Below are positions 3,094 to 15,803 of a stretch of 30,894 nt of DNA, in pieces. The position numbers and the translations under genes were made by a program. Position 1 is the stretch's first letter. Each line of letters opens with the position of its first letter. The stretch lies in contig ONPH01000007.1 of the NCBI GenBank assembly GCA_900319655.1, positions 1 through 30,894 of the forward strand. The letters run 5' to 3'. Under the pieces are notes generated by a model, which was not told the origin of the DNA, made no database searches, and saw nothing but the letters and a program-made list of their open reading frames with translations. This DNA comes from an uncultured Eubacteriales bacterium (GTDB taxonomy: Bacteria; Bacillota; Clostridia; Oscillospirales; Acutalibacteraceae).

Positions 3094-3220
3094 CAAAAGA
3101 CGGAACCGCAACCGTAGAGTATTGTTCTACCCTCCTCAACACGGGTGAGTTCAAAACCCGTGATTGTACCCCTCATTTTTTACAGATAGAAAACGCCCGA
3201 ACCTCATCGGGCGTTTTCCT
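3094..3220 (+). ncRNA. Candidate small regulatory RNA with C-rich loops
   Basis: No open reading frame fits this stretch, but it folds in order: a short stem ACGG/CCGT (3100-3103 with 3112-3115), which competes with GTAGA/TCTAC (3114-3118 with 3126-3130, 7-base loop); a 7-bp stem CACGGGT/ACCCGTG (3140-3146 with 3156-3162, 9-base loop); and an 11-bp terminator hairpin. The parts predicted single-stranded carry C-rich motifs: CCCTCCTCA (3130-3138), CCCCTCA (3169-3175) and the terminator loop ACCTCA (3201-3206). Such unpaired CCTC motifs resemble the ribosome-binding-site-blocking loops of known Firmicute sRNAs. It matches no RNA family I can name. Confidence 0.45.
3190..3220 (+). terminator. 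Rho-independent terminator of the candidate small RNA
   Basis: An 11-bp perfect stem (3190-3200 with 3207-3217) with a 6-base loop; the stem ends in four T and is followed by a T-rich run. No protein gene precedes it on the plus strand, which is the main reason to propose an RNA gene here. Confidence 0.75.
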
Positions 3221-3266
3221 TTATTTTAAATCGTTTCATAGGTTTGTTGGTGACTTAACTTTTGTT

Positions 3267-3423
3267 CTCGACTTATAAGTTTCAGTTATAACTTACGTTG
3301 GCAAATTCCTATTTAAATGTTTGCTGTTATTCAATCTTGTCTCGACTTATAGTTTCGGTGAAATCTTACGTTGGCAAATTCTTCTTTATACGTTTGATGT
3401 TATTCAAACTGTTCTCGACTTAT
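3267..3423. repeat. Tandem repeat with a 73-74 bp unit, two and a bit copies
   Basis: The block CTCGACTTAT recurs at 3267, 3341 and 3414 (the last copy reads CTCGACTTAT up to 3423), and TTACGTTGGCAAATTC recurs 73 bases apart at 3293 and 3366. Units one and two are similar along their whole length with scattered changes. The third copy is cut off by the end of the HAD gene at 3429. No open frame or strong hairpin explains it. Confidence 0.75.
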
Positions 3424-3428
3424 AATTT

Positions 3429-4079
3429 TCAGCAAGTCTCCGCTATCCTAATAACATCCTCCAAACCGTTCGCTATGTCGAACAGCAGGGGCTTAATCTC
3501 CTCTGTCGGTTGGTCGAGGTCGGGAACCATCACCGTTTTACAACCTGCCGCGTTTGCCGAGCGAATTCCGTTTGGCGAATCCTCGAGCGCTATGCAGTCC
3601 TTCGGCGCAAGCTTCAGCTTTTCCGCGGCATACAAATATATATCGGGCGCAGGCTTGCCGTGCTCTACCATCCTCGCACTGCAAACCTCGTCAAAACACT
3701 CTAACAATCCCACCATATCAAGGTATTTCTTTGCTCTGTCGACCGGAGTAGCGGTTGCCAGGGCTGTTTTTATGCCTTTTTCCTTTAAATAGCGCAAAAG
3801 CGTTTCCGCTCCGGACTTAGCTTCAATTCCGTTTTTCTCGACAAAGCTGTCCATCAGCTCGACGCGCTTATTACGAACCTTGTCATAGTCGAAATCTTCT
3901 CCGAAAAATCCCTGCAAGCGTTTAATCGCATACGGTCTTGCCATTGAGCGGATACTCAGCGCGTGAAACTTTTGCATGGGATAGCCGTAAAAATTGCCTG
4001 CCTCGCACCAAAAGCGCACATACAGCTTTTCGCTGTCGAGAATTACGCCGTCCATATCTGAAATTACACCTTTAATCAT
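3429..4079 (-). CDS. HAD-IA family phosphatase, beta-phosphoglucomutase-like
   Basis: A 216-residue HAD hydrolase. Motif I is SDMDGVILDSE, with nucleophile Asp8 and acid/base Asp10; motif II is ATATP; the conserved Lys is in HGKPAPDIY; motif IV is LEDSPNGI. The four-helix cap between motifs I and II fits the phosphoglycolate phosphatase / beta-phosphoglucomutase branch. I start it at the ATG at 4079, preceded by AAAGGAG, and not at the first Met of the open frame 14 codons earlier, because motif I then sits at the usual distance from the N-terminus. The start lies inside the end of the EamA gene (8-base overlap), so the two are co-translated. The substrate is unknown. Confidence 0.88.
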   Translation of the reverse strand: MIKGVISDMDGVILDSEKLYVRFWCEAGNFYGYPMQKFHALSIRSMARPYAIKRLQGFFGEDFDYDKVRNKRVELMDSFVEKNGIEAKSGAETLLRYLKEKGIKTALATATPVDRAKKYLDMVGLLECFDEVCSARMVEHGKPAPDIYLYAAEKLKLAPKDCIALEDSPNGIRSANAAGCKTVMVPDLDQPTEEIKPLLFDIANGLEDVIRIAETC

Positions 4080-5263: not shown

Positions 5264-8227
5264 ATAAAAAAGAGATTTATCTCTGTACTCCTGTGCATTG
5301 CTCTTTTGGCTACGATGACAGCGTTTACAATTCCCGCAAACGCCGCTGCCGATGAGGGCGAAGCCGCAGGGTACAACAGAACCTCGCCGCTTGACGGCGC
5401 TGACGACTTTACATGGGACAACGCTTCCGTGTATTTCCTACTCACCGACCGTTTCTACAACGGAAACACTTCAAACGACCATTCCTACGGCAGAGCTACC
5501 GACTCGAGCGGTAAGGCAATTTCCGGCTGGAACACCAACCCCGGTACGTTCCACGGCGGCGACTTTGCCGGAATTACAAAGAAGATTAACGAGGGTTACT
5601 TTGACAACCTCGGCGTAAGCGCCATCTGGATTTCCGCTCCTTACGAGCAGATTCACGGCTACGTTACCCCAGGCGAAGGACAGGATTTTGCCCACTATTC
5701 ATACCACGGCTACTATGTTCTTGACTACACCGAGACCGACGCCAACTTCGGTACAAAGGCTGAGTTCAAGACAATGGTAGACACCGCGCATCAGCACGGC
5801 ATCCGCGTTGTTATGGATATCGTTATGAACCACGCCGGCTACAACACAATCAAGGATATGCTCCAGTACAACTTCGGTACCTTTAAGGACAAATCCGCGG
5901 CTCAGTCATATCTTTACAAGATTACCGGTGTTAACGGCCTGCACGACTATATCAACTACGATGAATCCGCCTCCGACTGGGGCAGATGGTGGGGCTCAGG
6001 CTGGGTTAGAAGCGGCCTTCCCGGATATTCAACGGGCGGCGGCGGAGACATCGAGATGTGCCTTGCCGGACTTCCCGACTTTAAGACGGAGTCCACAAGC
6101 CCTGTTTCGATTCCCACCTTCCTCAAAACCAAGTGGCAGGGCGAGGGCACTTACAAAACAAAGCTCAGCAAATACGGCAGCTCCGACACCGTATCTAACT
6201 ACCTTGTAAAGTGGCTTTCCGAGTGGGTTTCAACCTACGGCGTTGACGGCTTCCGCTGCGACACTGCAAAGCACGTTGAAGACGCTTCTTGGAAGAAGCT
6301 TAAGACAAGCTGCGTATCGGCTCTTAAGACCTGGCGTCAGAACAATCCCAACAGCCCGGGAGCTAACTGGGACGAGGACTTCTGGATGACCGGAGAGGCA
6401 TGGGGACACGGCCTAGGCTACAGCCACTACTACAGCGACGGCGGCTTTGACTCTATGATTAACTTCTCGTTCTCAGGCTCGGGTGTTAACGGAGTTGAGG
6501 GCATAAACGGAATTTACCAGAACTACGCGTCAACAATCAACAATCAGAAGGGCTTTAACGCTCTTACATACATCTCCTCGCACGACTCTAACCTCGCGAG
6601 AAGCAACCTGATTTATCAGGGCTCGGCGTTCCAGCTTATGCCCGGCGCGATTCAGATTTTCTACGGCGATGAGAGCAACCGTCCGCTTGTTCCTGGTATG
6701 AACTTTGACGGCAACGGCGGCAGCGGTCATTCGCTGAGAAGTGATATGAACTGGAGATCGCTCGACTCAAAAACACTTGCCCACTGGCAAAAGGTCGGCA
6801 AGTTCAGAAGCAACCACGTTGCGGTAGGCGCAGGCGACCATCAGCAGATTACCGCCTACAACTCCTCAACCGGATATACATTCTCGAGAAGCTACGACGA
6901 CGGTATGACCTCGGACGGCGTTATCTGCACAATCGGCGCTCCGGCTAACAAGTCTATTGCCGTTGACGTTTCATCAATCTGGCAGAACGGCAAGACCGTT
7001 ACAAACGCTTACGACGGCACAACGGCTGTTGTAACTAACGGCAAGGCTACCTTTAATTCAGGAGCTAACGGCACAATCCTTATTGAAGGTCCTATGCCCA
7101 CAATCAGCATGAGCCTTAAGGGCGACTACTCCTTCTACGATTCAGAGGAAGTTACCGTTTCTCTCCGCGGCGCTGACTACGCTATGGTTTCCGTAAACGG
7201 CGGAACGGCGTTCAGGGTTGTTGACGGACAGAAATTCTCTATCGGCGACGGAATTGACCTCGGCGAGGTATTTACGGTAACTATGACCGCGACAAACTCA
7301 ACCGAAACAATCACAAAACCGTTTAACTTCAAGAGAAAAGACCCCAATGCGGTAGTAAAAATTTACTTTGACAACACAAAGTACAAATGGAGCCCCGTTA
7401 CGGCGTATGTTTACACCGAGGATTCATCCGGCAATGTTGTCAGCAACGCTGACTGGCCGGGCGTAAATATGGATTACGACAAGAGCACAGGCTTTTATGT
7501 ATATGAACTGCCCGACAATCTCGAAAACGGACTGGTAATCTTCAGCAGCAACGGCAACAATCAATACCCCGGCGCACAGCAAAAAGGTCTTGAGATTCAG
7601 GAGACAAACAAGCTCTTCTCTTACGGAGAAAAATGGACGGATTACAACGGAGAAACAGCCGATCCCGACCAGACAGATCCGCCGGCTGACACCTACAACG
7701 TTTACTTTGACAACAGCAGTAACAACTTCTCCAATCCCTACATCTATTATTGGCGTTCAAAGACCGATAACGGTGAGGACACATGGCCGGGTATTCCGAT
7801 GAAGAAATACAAGGACAATGTTTACATGGCCACCATCCCCACCGATCACGATATGTGTATCTTCAGCGATAACGGCGGCAACCAGACATTTAACCAAACC
7901 ATTCCCGGCGCGGATTACATCTACCGCAACGGCGCTTGGGAAAAATACTCCGACGCTGAGGTTACTCCGACTCAGCCCTCAACAAGCGACGATAAGGACA
8001 AGGTTCTTGTAGGCGACGTTAACTTTGACGGCATTGTTTCCGTAGCTGACGCTACCGTAGTTCAGAGATGCGCAGCCGAGCTGACTACCTTTAACGCAAA
8101 GGAAAAACTTGCAGGCGACTGCAACGGCGACAAAATTATCTCCGTAGCCGACGCTACGCTGATTCAGAAATACGCCGCTGAGTTCAACGAGGACTTAAAG
8201 CTCACAGGCACATACGTAAACGCTTAA
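5264..8227 (+). CDS. Secreted GH13 alpha-amylase with two CBM26 modules and a dockerin (apparent AUA start)
   Basis: A 987-residue extracellular starch hydrolase. Order: signal peptide (about 1-32, KKRF, hydrophobic core, then ANA-A); GH13 barrel most like MalS (subfamily 19), with DIVMNHAGY, nucleophile Asp333 (GFRCD), acid/base Glu378 (GEAWG) and Asp441 (SSHDS); C-terminal beta domain and an Ig-like module to about 695; two CBM26-like starch-binding modules (about 697-795 and 810-895, each with IYFDN/VYFDN and WPG); a type I dockerin (about 913-977) with two calcium loops. The dockerin should anchor it to a scaffoldin. The only start giving the full signal peptide is ATA at 5264, seven bases after AAGGAAG; an in-frame stop lies at 5246. 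The first usual start codon is TTG at 5306, which has no ribosome binding site and would cut off the charged start of the signal. Confidence 0.92.
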   Translation: MKKRFISVLLCIALLATMTAFTIPANAAADEGEAAGYNRTSPLDGADDFTWDNASVYFLLTDRFYNGNTSNDHSYGRATDSSGKAISGWNTNPGTFHGGDFAGITKKINEGYFDNLGVSAIWISAPYEQIHGYVTPGEGQDFAHYSYHGYYVLDYTETDANFGTKAEFKTMVDTAHQHGIRVVMDIVMNHAGYNTIKDMLQYNFGTFKDKSAAQSYLYKITGVNGLHDYINYDESASDWGRWWGSGWVRSGLPGYSTGGGGDIEMCLAGLPDFKTESTSPVSIPTFLKTKWQGEGTYKTKLSKYGSSDTVSNYLVKWLSEWVSTYGVDGFRCDTAKHVEDASWKKLKTSCVSALKTWRQNNPNSPGANWDEDFWMTGEAWGHGLGYSHYYSDGGFDSMINFSFSGSGVNGVEGINGIYQNYASTINNQKGFNALTYISSHDSNLARSNLIYQGSAFQLMPGAIQIFYGDESNRPLVPGMNFDGNGGSGHSLRSDMNWRSLDSKTLAHWQKVGKFRSNHVAVGAGDHQQITAYNSSTGYTFSRSYDDGMTSDGVICTIGAPANKSIAVDVSSIWQNGKTVTNAYDGTTAVVTNGKATFNSGANGTILIEGPMPTISMSLKGDYSFYDSEEVTVSLRGADYAMVSVNGGTAFRVVDGQKFSIGDGIDLGEVFTVTMTATNSTETITKPFNFKRKDPNAVVKIYFDNTKYKWSPVTAYVYTEDSSGNVVSNADWPGVNMDYDKSTGFYVYELPDNLENGLVIFSSNGNNQYPGAQQKGLEIQETNKLFSYGEKWTDYNGETADPDQTDPPADTYNVYFDNSSNNFSNPYIYYWRSKTDNGEDTWPGIPMKKYKDNVYMATIPTDHDMCIFSDNGGNQTFNQTIPGADYIYRNGAWEKYSDAEVTPTQPSTSDDKDKVLVGDVNFDGIVSVADATVVQRCAAELTTFNAKEKLAGDCNGDKIISVADATLIQKYAAEFNEDLKLTGTYVNA

Positions 8228-12326: not shown

Positions 12327-13148
12327 TTAGAACGAGCCGCTGCTGCCGTGAGAGGAGCTTCCGCCCGAGGATGAATTGTTAGATGAAGATTGGATGGTAG
12401 TGTAGGTAGTGTGCTTGCTCACAAACACGTCCTGACTGTCAAGCAAAGTCATCTGACTGTTTTTGTTGAGGTCGTATGTGCCGCTCTTGCCGTTGTACTT
12501 ATATCTTCCGACATTGACAGCGACAAAGATAATCGCGATAATAACGCCTGCGATTCCGCCGATCCAGCCGAACTTTTTGAGCGACTGAAGGATTTTCGGC
12601 TCGTTGCTCTTTTCGGTTGGAGTTTGAACGACGTTGTTATATGTGCCGTTGCCCGAAACGCCTGCGGTTACATACTCCTGAACCTTGGCGACGTAAAGCT
12701 TTGCCGCCTGGTAGTTGTCGCCTGAGGCGAGGGCAGGCTTAAGCGTAGACTTAAGCGCGTCCATACGCGCGTCGTCAAAGTACTTTTCCGCCTTGCCGTA
12801 GGTGAGTATTACCCTGTTATTTGACTTGGTGTCAAACACGAGCATTACGCCGTCGGGCTGATATTTAGAGTCGGAATCGTGATACTTATTATAATAGGTA
12901 TCCATCTCCGACGAATCAATGTTCTTGTCGTCGGTGTGAACGGCCACCTGAAAGCCTGCCTGCTTGCCTGCGGCTTCGGCCGAGGTGCAGAGGTCTGCAA
13001 ACTGTTCGGATGTAAAAATGTTTGAGTCGTCGGTAACGGCGTAATTAATTGAATAGCTGTTCTGAGCGAATACCGGCATAACCGATATTGTCAGAACCAT
13101 CACAACGCAGATAACCGCCGAAAACCGTTTGGAAAGCTGTTTAATCAT
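12327..13148 (-). CDS. TPM domain protein, exported and membrane-anchored
   Basis: A 273-residue protein with a signal peptide (about 1-28, ending VFAQ), an extracytoplasmic TPM domain (about 35-165, with VTDDSNIFTSEQ and GVMLVFDTKSNNRVILTYG), one membrane helix (about 195-213, GIAGVIIAIIFVAV) and a tail ending in a Ser/Gly/His-rich stretch. TPM domains occur in plant thylakoid TLP18.3 and bacterial YgcG-type proteins; their role is unclear and has been linked to membrane protein quality control. Its ATG overlaps the TGA of the zinc-ribbon gene (ATGA), so the two are co-translated. Last gene of the cluster. Confidence 0.85.
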   Translation of the reverse strand: MIKQLSKRFSAVICVVMVLTISVMPVFAQNSYSINYAVTDDSNIFTSEQFADLCTSAEAAGKQAGFQVAVHTDDKNIDSSEMDTYYNKYHDSDSKYQPDGVMLVFDTKSNNRVILTYGKAEKYFDDARMDALKSTLKPALASGDNYQAAKLYVAKVQEYVTAGVSGNGTYNNVVQTPTEKSNEPKILQSLKKFGWIGGIAGVIIAIIFVAVNVGRYKYNGKSGTYDLNKNSQMTLLDSQDVFVSKHTTYTTIQSSSNNSSSGGSSSHGSSGSF

Positions 13149-14284
13149 AAGAACAACATACCTCCCAACGTAGCTAATGCAAAGATTATCACAGCGATAA
13201 CCGCCGCGATACCGATTACCTTGCCAAGCGCGATAGGAAGCTTGCCGTAGGTTTTGCCTGTCTGGCCGTTGATGGCGAAGGGCAAAAGCTGTCCGTTAAA
13301 CTTGTAGGTGACAATCCATACGGGCAAAAGGGTGTAGCGCCAATCCTGCTTAAAGGTCTCGTCGTTATAATCCTCTATAGAAATGCCGGAATAGCTGTTC
13401 ATTGTGTTTTTTAGCAGGGTTGTCGCGTACTCGTCCATTCGCTGAGCGATAACGGCGGTCAAATCCTGCTTTTCAATATCCCTTTTCTCAGCCTGGAAGC
13501 CCGAAAGGTAGCTCATTGCGAATGGTCTTTGCTTGCTTAAATCAAAGGGGTGAACGCAGGAGAGCATTTCCTGCTTTGTCTTTTGCGACACCTTGATATC
13601 CGCCTTAACGCTGTTTTCCTCGGTAATTCTGAGGGCGTTTTCGGCAACATTCTGAATTAAAATATCGCCGGTTCTGTAAAGGCGGTAGGTGCTGGTCTCG
13701 GTATATCTGCGGTTGCCGGACGTCCAGGTTCTCTCGGTCTGGCCGGTGGCGGTTACGCTTGAGCGCATTTGCTCGTCAACGTACCAATAGGGGAAGTAAA
13801 CGCCCTGCATTTTTTCAAACTGTTTGGACGACGTAAAGCCCTTCGGCAAAAACCACTTCTTTTTGCACATATTCAAAAAGACGTCGGTTGCCTTCTTTTT
13901 GTCGACAGCAAAGGGAATCACGGTGTCGGGCTTGAACTCGCCCGAAAGTCTGCCTCCCAGAACAACCGGGTTTTGGCAGTACACGCAGTGGGTAGCCGCT
14001 GTTGAGGCTGTTGTGATAATCTCAGCACCGCAGCTGGGACAGGAGTAGGACACCGGATAATCGTCGCCCTCAAAGCCCTGTTTCTCGGCCTCTGCCTTTT
14101 GCTTGGCGGCGTACTCTACGTCGCGCTCGTCCTTGGTAGTCTGCTGTTCACGCTCGGAGTAACGCTGCTGAACCTCCTGCTCGGTAAAGTCAGAGAAGCA
14201 GTACTCGCAGCTGAACATCTGTTTTTCGGGATTAAACTGCAGCGGTCCGCCGCATTTTGGACATTTATAATTTAATGTAGCCAT
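13145..14284 (-). CDS. Double zinc-ribbon protein with C-terminal membrane helix (TFIIB-type zinc ribbon family)
   Basis: A 379-residue protein of unknown function. Two zinc ribbons are plain: Cys8/Cys11 with Cys26/Cys29, and Cys82/Cys85 with Cys100/Cys103, joined by a charged helix rich in Glu, Lys and Gln. The middle part holds WFLPKGF and GVYFPYWYVDEQM, typical of this family. The C-terminus is a hydrophobic helix (GIAAVIAVIIFALATLGG), so the protein is probably anchored with its ribbons in the cytoplasm. Its ribbons would not be used for DNA binding by analogy alone. Its GGAG ribosome binding site lies within the last hairpin of the array at 14291-14526. Confidence 0.85.
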   Translation of the reverse strand: MATLNYKCPKCGGPLQFNPEKQMFSCEYCFSDFTEQEVQQRYSEREQQTTKDERDVEYAAKQKAEAEKQGFEGDDYPVSYSCPSCGAEIITTASTAATHCVYCQNPVVLGGRLSGEFKPDTVIPFAVDKKKATDVFLNMCKKKWFLPKGFTSSKQFEKMQGVYFPYWYVDEQMRSSVTATGQTERTWTSGNRRYTETSTYRLYRTGDILIQNVAENALRITEENSVKADIKVSQKTKQEMLSCVHPFDLSKQRPFAMSYLSGFQAEKRDIEKQDLTAVIAQRMDEYATTLLKNTMNSYSGISIEDYNDETFKQDWRYTLLPVWIVTYKFNGQLLPFAINGQTGKTYGKLPIALGKVIGIAAVIAVIIFALATLGGMLFL

Positions 14285-14290
14285 AATATT

Positions 14291-14526
14291 CTCCGTCGGA
14301 GAGCTAAATTACGGCTGCCGCCGTAGCTAAATTGCCGCGTTGCGGCAGCTAAATTATTTCGCTTCGCTCAATAGCTAAATTATCTCGCTGCGCTCGATAG
14401 CTAAATTTTTCGGTAAACCGAAAAGCTTAGTTAAAGAATAGCTCGCGCAAGCGAATTTAGCTACGGCGTAAGCCGTAATTTAGCTTGCCGAAGGCAAATT
14501 TAACTCGCCGTAAGGCGAATTTAGCT
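14291..14526. repeat. Mirror-symmetric array of about ten small hairpins joined by AGCTAAATT linkers
   Basis: On the plus strand the left half has AGCTAAATT at 14302, 14325, 14347, 14373 and 14399 (a decayed copy at 14424). The right half has the reverse complement AATTTAGCT at 14454, 14477, 14497 (one change) and 14518. Between linkers sit different short palindromes: CTCC/GGAG (14291-14301), ACGGC/GCCGT (14311-14324), GCCGC/GCGGC (14334-14346), two interrupted ones (14356-14372, 14382-14398), TTTCGG/CCGAAA (14408-14423), TCGC/GCGA (14443-14454), ACGGC/GCCGT (14463-14476), TGCC/GGCA (14486-14496) and CGCC/GGCG (14506-14517). The whole block can fold on itself. It fills the gap between the SPFH and zinc-ribbon genes. 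Confidence 0.9.
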
Positions 14527-14537
14527 CATTAGCTCAA

Positions 14538-15803
14538 TTACTCTGCTTTTGTTCCGCACTCGGGGCAGAATTTTGTTGTGGGTGAAAGCTCTGCGCCGCA
14601 GTTTGTGCAGAAGCGCTTTTTGGGAGCTTCGGGCTTAGCCTTGCCGCACTCTGAGCAGAACTTGCCCTGGTTTGTTGCACCACATTCGCATGTCCAGCCG
14701 CCCTGTGCAGGAGCCGCCTGCTGGGGAGCCTGCTGCTGAGGCTGCTGGGGCTGTTGCTGCTGAGGCTGAGCGTACTGCTGCTGGTTGCCGTACTGGGGAT
14801 TTTGCATATAGTTGCCCATTACGCCTGCGCCCATATTCTGAGCCATGTTCATACCCATAAAGCCGATAGCCGCGCCGCCGGGGTTGTTGCCCGCGCCGCT
14901 GATGCCTTCGCCGACGCTCTTTGCCATATACGCCTGCTGGTTTGCGGCGTCCTTGAGGTAGCTGACCTGAGAGGCCATCTTGCTGCGCTCGGTAACAATC
15001 TTCTGGCTTTCTTCGTCGTAAGCCGGGGGCTGCATACCTACAGAAGTAACCTGGAAGCCTCTGAGCTGGTTCCAGTCCTCGTCGAGGGCGTCAGCCATGT
15101 ACTTGCCCATTTCCTTTGTCTTTGAAGCGATGTGGCTTACGCGGAAGCCGTCTGCCGAATACTGGTTAAACGCAGTGCCGAGCTCTGACACGAACTCATC
15201 ATTGAACTGCTGGATAGCAGGCATTGCGAAGGTGAATTTTTCGTTGTTTGTGATAACCTCTCTCGGGATTACCTCCATATAGAACTTGAACGGGTCGGTG
15301 ATTTTGATTGAGTATGTACCGTGCAGGCGCATAAACAACTCTGACTCGTAGAAGTTGTCGAAATACTGAACGGGGTTCTGTGTTCCAAACTTAATTCCTC
15401 TGATTTCCTGCAGGTTGAGGAAGAAAACTCTCTGCGAGGTTGAGGAAATTCCGCCGTACTTGATACGGCTGAAGCTCTCCTTGATGGAGTCGCCAAACTG
15501 GCCGTTAAAGAGTGAGGGAAGCGCGCTGTTGTCAACCTTGTAGTAACCGGCTGTTGCAGTGTAGTCAACAATTTTGCCGCCGTCAACCAAAATCATAAAC
15601 TGGTTGTCGAGAACATGAATGATTGAACCGTTTGAAACGAGGTTTTCGCCGCCCTTTTTGTTCTGGCTTCTGCCCTTTTGGTCAACCGCCTGGCCGGGAA
15701 CAATAACGTCGTTATTGCCCATCGGGGCGGATTCGATGACTTCAAGCCATGTATCGGCAAGAGCGCCTGTTACCGCGTTTATCGCAGCCTTAATAATACC
15801 CAT
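14538..15803 (-). CDS. SPFH/band-7 domain protein with Gln-rich linker and two zinc ribbons
   Basis: A 421-residue protein. An SPFH-like domain (about residues 20-290, annotated in many genomes as a virion core protein-like family) is followed by a Gly/Met-rich part, a Gln/Pro-rich linker (about 335-369) and two CxxC-CxxC ribbons at the C-terminus (CECG with CSECG; CTNCG with CPECG). SPFH proteins build rings or scaffolds on membranes. No membrane helix is visible, so association with membrane would be peripheral or through partners. A strong AAAGGAG precedes the ATG. It follows the Tim44-like gene and has its own promoter at 15865-15893. The function is unknown. Confidence 0.88.
   Translation of the reverse strand: MGIIKAAINAVTGALADTWLEVIESAPMGNNDVIVPGQAVDQKGRSQNKKGGENLVSNGSIIHVLDNQFMILVDGGKIVDYTATAGYYKVDNSALPSLFNGQFGDSIKESFSRIKYGGISSTSQRVFFLNLQEIRGIKFGTQNPVQYFDNFYESELFMRLHGTYSIKITDPFKFYMEVIPREVITNNEKFTFAMPAIQQFNDEFVSELGTAFNQYSADGFRVSHIASKTKEMGKYMADALDEDWNQLRGFQVTSVGMQPPAYDEESQKIVTERSKMASQVSYLKDAANQQAYMAKSVGEGISGAGNNPGGAAIGFMGMNMAQNMGAGVMGNYMQNPQYGNQQQYAQPQQQQPQQPQQQAPQQAAPAQGGWTCECGATNQGKFCSECGKAKPEAPKKRFCTNCGAELSPTTKFCPECGTKAE

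Follow-up and report, generated by a model that had tools for sequence, protein, structure and literature searches.

A mirror-symmetric hairpin array in an uncultured Acutalibacteraceae bacterium: a probable copy of a dispersed, modular intergenic repeat

The gap between two minus-strand genes of an uncultured Eubacteriales bacterium is filled by short hairpins joined by one recurring linker. This block is probably one copy of a dispersed, modular intergenic repeat family that lives and changes as DNA, in the manner of BOX elements or MITEs. The unit of the array is a polar module, composed of a fixed linker and a short hairpin of free sequence. Such arrays lie in intergenic gaps, often at the 3' ends of genes, and their presence or absence varies at orthologous loci. 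Most likely, the array follows the same plan as elements that bear the linker of the Rfam Gut-1 RNA, and is akin to BOX elements in its behaviour. Whole elements would be copied to new sites, after which their arms may gain and lose single units; slippage, template switching, or an enzyme that acts on linkers or on single-stranded hairpins could bring this about. In the message, the block would have an incidental effect only, as stem-loops between two genes.

Layout of the array in the window

The window is the whole stretch of 30,894 bases that was analysed. The array (14285..14537) fills entirely the 253-base gap between an SPFH-type and a zinc-ribbon-type gene, names taken over from the original prediction, and comprises ten short palindromes, eight exact linkers, one one-base variant linker and one degenerate linker. 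From left to right, the features are as follows.

13145-14284, minus strand: zinc-ribbon-type gene, flanking the array
14291..14301, no strand: outermost hairpin CTCCGTCGGAG, with the GGAG upstream of the ATG of the zinc-ribbon-type gene on the minus strand
14302..14310, plus strand: linker AGCTAAATT, exact
14311..14324, no strand: hairpin ACGGCTGCCGCCGT
14325..14333, plus strand: linker AGCTAAATT, exact
14334..14346, no strand: hairpin GCCGCGTTGCGGC; identical hairpin on contig C111 of the same genome
14347..14355, plus strand: linker AGCTAAATT, exact
14356..14372, no strand: hairpin ATTTCGCTTCGCTCAAT, h2 type, with GCGAAGC within its minus strand
14373..14381, plus strand: linker AGCTAAATT, exact
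14382..14398, no strand: hairpin ATCTCGCTGCGCTCGAT, second of h2 type
14399..14407, plus strand: linker AGCTAAATT, exact
14408..14423, no strand: hairpin TTTCGGTAAACCGAAA, h3 type
14424..14443, plus strand: degenerate centre AGCTTAGTT-AAAGAAT-AGCT, in which AGCTTAGTT (14424-14432) is the degenerate linker
14444..14453, no strand: hairpin CGCGCAAGCG, h4
14454..14462, minus strand: linker, AATTTAGCT on the plus strand, exact
14463..14476, no strand: hairpin ACGGCGTAAGCCGT
14477..14485, minus strand: linker, AATTTAGCT on the plus strand, exact
14486..14496, no strand: hairpin TGCCGAAGGCA; identical hairpin on contigs C106, C111 and C138 of the same genome
14497..14505, minus strand: one-base variant linker AATTTAACT; AATTTAGCT at the same place in the sister genome G095
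14506..14517, no strand: hairpin CGCCGTAAGGCG
14518..14526, minus strand: outermost right linker, AATTTAGCT on the plus strand, exact
14538-15803, minus strand: SPFH-type gene, flanking the array

The exact linker occurs 8 times in the window, every time within 14302-14526, compared with an expectation of 0.53 copies per window and a maximum of 4 in 100 shuffles. Five copies read in the plus direction in the left half (starts at 14302, 14325, 14347, 14373 and 14399) and three in the minus direction in the right half (14454, 14477 and 14518). The original prediction had described nine or ten short palindromes on one fixed linker, with AGCTAAATT on the left and its reverse complement on the right, and this is confirmed, with ten palindromes. 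Its statement that all linkers within a half are identical is slightly too strong, because the variant AATTTAACT and the degenerate AGCTTAGTT exist; five linkers on the left and three on the right are exact. The GGAG of the zinc-ribbon-type gene does lie inside the outermost hairpin (14291-14301), as had been noted. The hairpins at 14356-14372 and 14382-14398 have internal mismatches. The neighbouring SPFH-type protein has a C-terminal Q/P-rich stretch and two Cys-pair (zinc-ribbon-like) motifs (window 14538-14800).

Distribution, common plan and turnover of the family

In the genome that contains the window (G000; 1.6 Mb, 226 contigs, 80.7% complete), the pattern of linker, 5 to 30 bases and linker was matched 30 times on 10 contigs, so that the arrays form a dispersed, multicopy intergenic repeat as MITE- or BOX-like elements do. 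A reversed control pattern had 0 matches in this genome, and the inside-out order (AATTTAGCT followed by AGCTAAATT, 4-26 bases apart) had 0 exact matches. Arrays with AGCTAAATT were found in 12 of 100 sampled genomes of the genus, some by one match alone (control hits, 0), and in 19 of 394 genomes of the order, from 15 of 168 genera (control, one hit in each of 3 genomes). Among the matches listed in a scan of named genomes, convincing arrays came from Ruminococcus, Oscillospiraceae and Clostridia MAGs of rumen and gut, together with scattered chance single hits in other taxa. The search of the genome and its relatives for the linker beside short palindromes, which the original prediction had recommended, revealed further copies, and the single, unvarying copy that would have refuted it was not what was found. 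Open-access PMC text, queried by topic and not by linker letters, yielded no description of this hairpin-array family.

Carriage by phages or plasmids was rejected, as the array had no blastn match in phage and plasmid collections. A pattern scan of viral contigs gave at least 120 stretches, and among the matches listed 2 pass the hairpin filter. One (L264) is a single chance-like unit on a contig filed as viral. The other (L333:4200-4435, IMGVR_UViG_3300018494_004344) is a convincing two-armed array whose linkers are AGCTAAATT and AGCGAAATT; the 4.4-kb contig that carries it is likewise filed as viral and may be host DNA instead.

Elements with a recognisable centre share the plan h1 > h2 > h3 > [X, few bases, AGCT or AGCG, h4] < h5 < h6 < h7 <, and are 161-183 bp long where each side has four linkers. 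The fullest copies consist of three hairpins, a centre X, four hairpins of opposite polarity, and an end X' that is complementary to X; X, for instance AAATTCGCC, is the reverse complement of a segment made up of the h7 end and the first bases of the last linker (GGCGAATTT). The outer linkers of two-armed copies are inverted repeats. Relative to this plan, the window copy has retained hairpins of the h2 and h3 types, has additional left units, and has a decayed centre. In genome G031, at least five elements (contigs C8, C13, C18, C26 and C56) share h3, as TTGCGATAAATCGCAA or a one-base variant. Mirror order is not universal: many arrays are one-armed, and inside-out arrays, with the AATTTAGCT units first and then those with AGCTAAATT, are present at L063:2517-2665, L063:7002-7151 and L060:4263-4439. 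These inside-out arrays slightly weaken the DNA-repeat reading.

In some Clostridia, among them one genome with two such loci (L103:2677-3015 and L112:6454-6821), the array is found inside a longer repeat of about 340-370 bp, which consists of a conserved upstream long hairpin (AACCCACT...AGTGGGTT), the array, and a downstream hairpin that in most cases has a T-rich end. Repeats resembling this type occur at L077, L122, L153 and L165; Rfam searches over the longer repeat in L103, L112, L122 and L153 gave no match at gathering level.

Around the block, the closest genome, G095, has 95.0% identity to G000 across 3,032 nt. It holds a matching array at the same place, with 4 differences in 253 nt, and an assembly artefact, which the original prediction had allowed for, is very unlikely because the same array stands at the same locus in this second genome of the genus. 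The divergence of the array (4/253 sites) is lower than the 5.0% of the whole 3,032-nt stretch (Fisher p 0.006). Given this slow change relative to its flanks, the window copy looks constrained or recently exchanged, which counts against the DNA-repeat reading.

A comparison covering the 10 arrays of G000 and the fetched arrays of G095 gave nine loci that were readable in both genomes. Units are the same at two of them (the window locus and C97) and differ in number or kind at five (C103, C138, C126, C16 and C19 of G000), and at the other two an array is present in G095 only (on its contigs C14 and C56). Internal module number is thus variable between species at 5 of 9 readable loci, as in MITE- or BOX-like repeats. 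C11, C106 and C111 were left out of this count owing to contig ends in G095; C11 differs between the two genomes over its readable part, and C106 and C111 have the same first linker. C100 (a gap of N), C114, and C45, C63 and the first array of C14 of G095 also fall outside the comparison. The second array on C14 of G095 provides one clean filled/empty pair, in which the G000 site is empty and the junction shares only TA. In the outgroup G053, the array is absent at five loci (window, C97, C106, C111 and C11). Growth by units, as first proposed, is supported by these differences between sister species at orthologous loci and by repeated unit pairs in C45 of G095 and C6 of G057. Hairpin types found identically at more than one locus number 3 of 30 in G000 and 3 of 41 in the fetched G095 loci; that so few are common to the loci of one genome is a point against the DNA repeat.

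Flanking ORFs were called by script. Where both neighbours of a two-armed array were called, they are co-directional in 25 cases, convergent in 16 and divergent in 3 (20 more arrays have a flank missing), and 32 of 134 array sides at gene 3' ends are within 11 nt of the stop codon; these context tallies, like the loop tallies below, are approximate because chance hits (e.g., L096, L141, L149) and related loci are included, and they count the window array and its G095 copy as two rows each. One-armed arrays within 11 nt of a stop codon read AGCTAAATT in the direction of the gene in 18 of 20 cases. Linkers can overlap the stop codon, and some right ends adjoin the terminator-like hairpin that belongs to a tRNA gene in convergent orientation. 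Of 31 elements of the AGCTAAATT class, 4 have a tRNA within 150 nt, and of 10 inspected elements of the GTGAAAT class (see below), 5 have one within 200 nt.

The suggestion that the block is a translation switch for the zinc-ribbon-type gene found little support. The position of the GGAG in the last hairpin is the sole observation in its favour. The SPFH locus had a match in 91 of 100 genomes; the next gene follows in 27 of the 30 congeners fetched, and at these 27 loci with the next gene readable the array is present between the two genes in G000 and G095 only, i.e. absent from 25 of the 27 orthologous gene pairs. One SPFH locus (L193) has a lone AATTTAGCT. Arrays resembling that of the window lie after the stop codons of other genes, and a switch appears extremely improbable.

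REP units are hairpins beside a short fixed sequence, and REP hairpins resemble one another in sequence. Like REP/BIME repeats, the arrays are intergenic hairpins in inverted pairs, and a REP/BIME-type repeat moved by a RAYT or IS200-like Y1 transposase would also accord with Y1 domain matches in 58 of 100 genus genomes. However, array hairpins differ from each other, and the arrays have no link to RAYT genes: a Y1 match is present in 7 of the 12 genomes with arrays and in 51 of the 88 without, and is missing from G000 (80.7% complete), and the exact linker was found at 0 of the 12 RAYT-like loci examined (16 fetched). This origin is therefore very improbable. RAYT/IS200 was rejected as the mover, as Y1 (Y1_Tnp, PF01797) is unassociated with array presence and the RAYT-like loci lack the exact linker, and no mobilising enzyme was found, a point against the DNA repeat. 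Two RAYT-like loci (L231 and L245) are near GTAGGG repeats instead of the linker. Several congeners (L231, L233, L234, L235, L237, L238 and L244) have their RAYT-like Y1 genes at one recurring spot, immediately upstream of a gene that starts about ATGATAAAAGCAGG and that we take to be argC-like.

A CRISPR array alternates fixed short repeats with variable segments, as does the array described here. In the latter, however, the repeat is 9 nt long, its orientation flips at the centre, and the variable segments are palindromic, in place of direct repeats in one orientation with non-palindromic spacers. The original statement that the block is not a CRISPR, REP or terminator cluster stands as far as tested, although it missed the nearest relative, the Rfam Gut-1 RNA. 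BOX modules are about 45 bp long and of one kind of sequence, in contrast to array hairpins, which are polar and free in sequence. The portion of the source drawn on here describes the BOX elements of Streptococcus pneumoniae as dispersed and modular, with a variable number of internal modules, a length that varies between genomes, and stem-loops if transcribed (PMC3049150). The arrays resemble this description in being dispersed and modular, with variable internal units and stem-loop potential, a likeness of behaviour and not of compared sequence. The same portion attributes a TIR and target duplication to BOX (PMC3049150), whereas the one clean junction of the array shares TA only.

Polarity and loops of the hairpins

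When 492 units with no more than one unpaired position are read in the linker frame, TN(N)C loops number 313 and GN(N)A loops 1. The remaining 178 are of other kinds, AAA and AAC triloops included; they break the TN(N)C rule and count against the DNA-repeat reading. In two-armed arrays, TN(N)C accounts for 88 of the 142 left-arm units and 90 of the 146 right-arm units, and linker variants have a similar spectrum in both directions. As loop and linker-variant spectra are alike in both arms and directions, polarity is a property of the module rather than of one transcript strand, and the right arm consists of the module in the opposite orientation. Since loop polarity is locked to the linker, two dissimilar kinds of hairpin occur together in one transcript, and this speaks against a simple RNA scaffold.

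A preference for GNRA is the tetraloop rule of RNA. When the 450 fully paired hairpins are read on the AATTTAGCT strand, the closing pair is C-G in 384. The C-G-closed tetraloops are GNNA in 99 of 118 cases, 53 of these being GNRA (about half, i.e. no preference), and GNNA in 50 of 69 distinct hairpins, with 25 GNRA. The C-G-closed triloops are GNA in 174 of 266 cases and in 67 of 127 distinct hairpins; the commonest others are AAA and AAC. In the part of the literature consulted, extra-stable DNA mini-hairpins combine two or more G-C pairs with a loop that is either GNA or GNNA (PMC4686876). The loops of the arrays follow this DNA mini-hairpin rule rather than the GNRA rule of RNA. Loops that fit it make up 44% (loop of 3) and 43% (loop of 4) of array hairpins, compared with 7.5% and 3.8% in other noncoding and 2.8% and 2.4% in coding sequence, i.e. 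a 16- to 18-fold excess over coding and a 6- to 11-fold excess over other noncoding hairpins. The match to this rule suggests that the form relevant for copying is probably single-stranded DNA.

Wobble pairs are unbiased in the linker frame (A-C 24, G-T 20). In the transcript frame, G-T exceeds A-C by 13 to 6, which weakly favours RNA; the excess is not significant (p 0.17), and a G-U bias was rejected as a sign of selection on RNA.

Gut-1 and other linker classes

Gut-1 is a noncoding RNA that, according to the section of Weinberg et al. (2010) used here, is found only in environmental sequence, from the human gut (PMC2864571). Its model matches the right arm of the array.

14449..14527, minus strand: match to Rfam Gut-1 (RF01706) that spans all 77 positions of the model and, at 37.7 bits, falls short of the 50-bit gathering score

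The model consensus has three hairpins with GUGAAAU linkers, and it resembles the array in its short hairpins spaced by a fixed linker and in consensus loops that fit TN(N)C. The array of the window differs from it in its score and in its linker, which is AGCTAAATT/AATTTAGCT.

GTGAAAT arrays occur in 7 of 100 genomes of the genus, with one control hit in an eighth. Several of the 16 regions fetched have the full plan: the left linkers read GTGAAAT, the right ones ATTTCAC, and X/X' is made of other bases (e.g., TAAATCCACC...GGTGGATTTA in L398 and L400, GAAATAAATTC...GAATTTATTTC in L402). The Gut-1 model thus represents one arm of three hairpins, whereas these elements have two mirror arms plus X/X'. 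Others are one-armed (L404, L405, L407, L408 and L409). The outermost right linker of GTGAAAT elements is unlike the inner linkers, and reads inward as AGCTAAAT in L397 and L406, AACTAAAT in L398 and L400, and AACGAAAT in L396, L402 and L403. Because GTGAAAT elements can keep the same plan with other bases, mirror complementarity survived the change of linker.

Both linker classes are found together in two genomes (G025 and G066), among 12 that bear AGCTAAATT and 7 that bear GTGAAAT. Such little-overlapping sets might be expected if the linkers were double-stranded binding sites of a DNA protein, e.g., a nucleoid or termination protein, with the hairpins as spacers, and the rarity of two-armed arrays between divergent genes (3, compared with 25 co-directional and 16 convergent) would agree with this. 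Binding sites would leave unexplained why the spacers are hairpins with a loop rule and why mirror order prevails, and we consider this function quite unlikely.

A structured noncoding or untranslated-region RNA, as the Gut-1 family would imply, deserves more weight and is nevertheless rather unlikely. Here the linkers would pair as a rod, with opposite hairpins at four-way junctions; pairing of X with X' as an alternative to the last hairpin is doubtful to the same degree. In addition to the Gut-1 match and the conservation of the window array above its flanks, linker pairing lowers the computed energy in 36 of 36 parsed elements, and in 30 elements the agreeing run between X and h7 averages 4.03, compared with 3.15 when h7 is shuffled among elements (0 of 2000 permutations reach the observed value) and with 0.83, 0.67 and 0.03 for h4, h5 and h6; these energies and permutations leave relatedness among the elements uncontrolled. 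Matching changes in X and X' are seen in several elements (CGGC in L100 and L109, TGCC in L168, CGCG in L170). That GTGAAAT elements preserve mirror linkers and X/X' in other bases fits an RNA fold as well, and is a further point against the DNA repeat. The minus-strand RNA of the 253-base gap folds at -109.9 kcal/mol, compared with -73.5 (sd 4.5) for 200 shuffles (z -8.1), a value in favour of RNA that is also what palindrome-rich sequence would give. Against RNA stand the two unlike hairpin kinds per transcript, the tetraloops without GNRA preference, the abundance of one-armed arrays, and the inside-out arrays (L063 twice, L060 once). Linker variants within an element are often unmatched by the partner linker, and strict linker-linker pairing within one element was rejected for this reason.

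The preferred DNA repeat can be extended, tentatively, to a class of genetic element made of polar single-stranded DNA hairpin cassettes. Dedicated machinery that reads hairpin shape and linker might add and remove units, linkers being species-specific, and the Gut-1 "RNA" might be one arm of such an element; in the same tentative scheme, stem sequence would be free, a C-GN(N)A-G loop favoured and the linker fixed. If so, an Rfam noncoding RNA family would belong to a broader system of two-armed repeats in Clostridia of the gut and rumen, with units of free sequence and common shape and polarity. Such a system would allow the idea of single-stranded DNA hairpins as modules that are inherited and copied to be tested in nature, and its turnover would alter message structure and intergenic content between sister species. 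It would also caution that conserved complementarity alone can give a DNA repeat the look of a functional RNA.

A de novo scan of the loci fetched earlier via AGCTAAATT or other queries revealed further arrays, with ATATCG, ATGATG, AGTTATA and ACGATG linkers; a block-shuffled control (one shuffle) gave no chain. One 6.9-kb stretch (L170) combines three GTGAAAT arrays, one AGCTAAATT element and one ACGATG-linker array (1439-1526, 2057-2137, 6648-6731 on the minus strand, 3162-3338 and about 3520-3600, respectively). Two of its GTGAAAT arrays reach the Gut-1 gathering score, with 52.1 and 51.8 bits.
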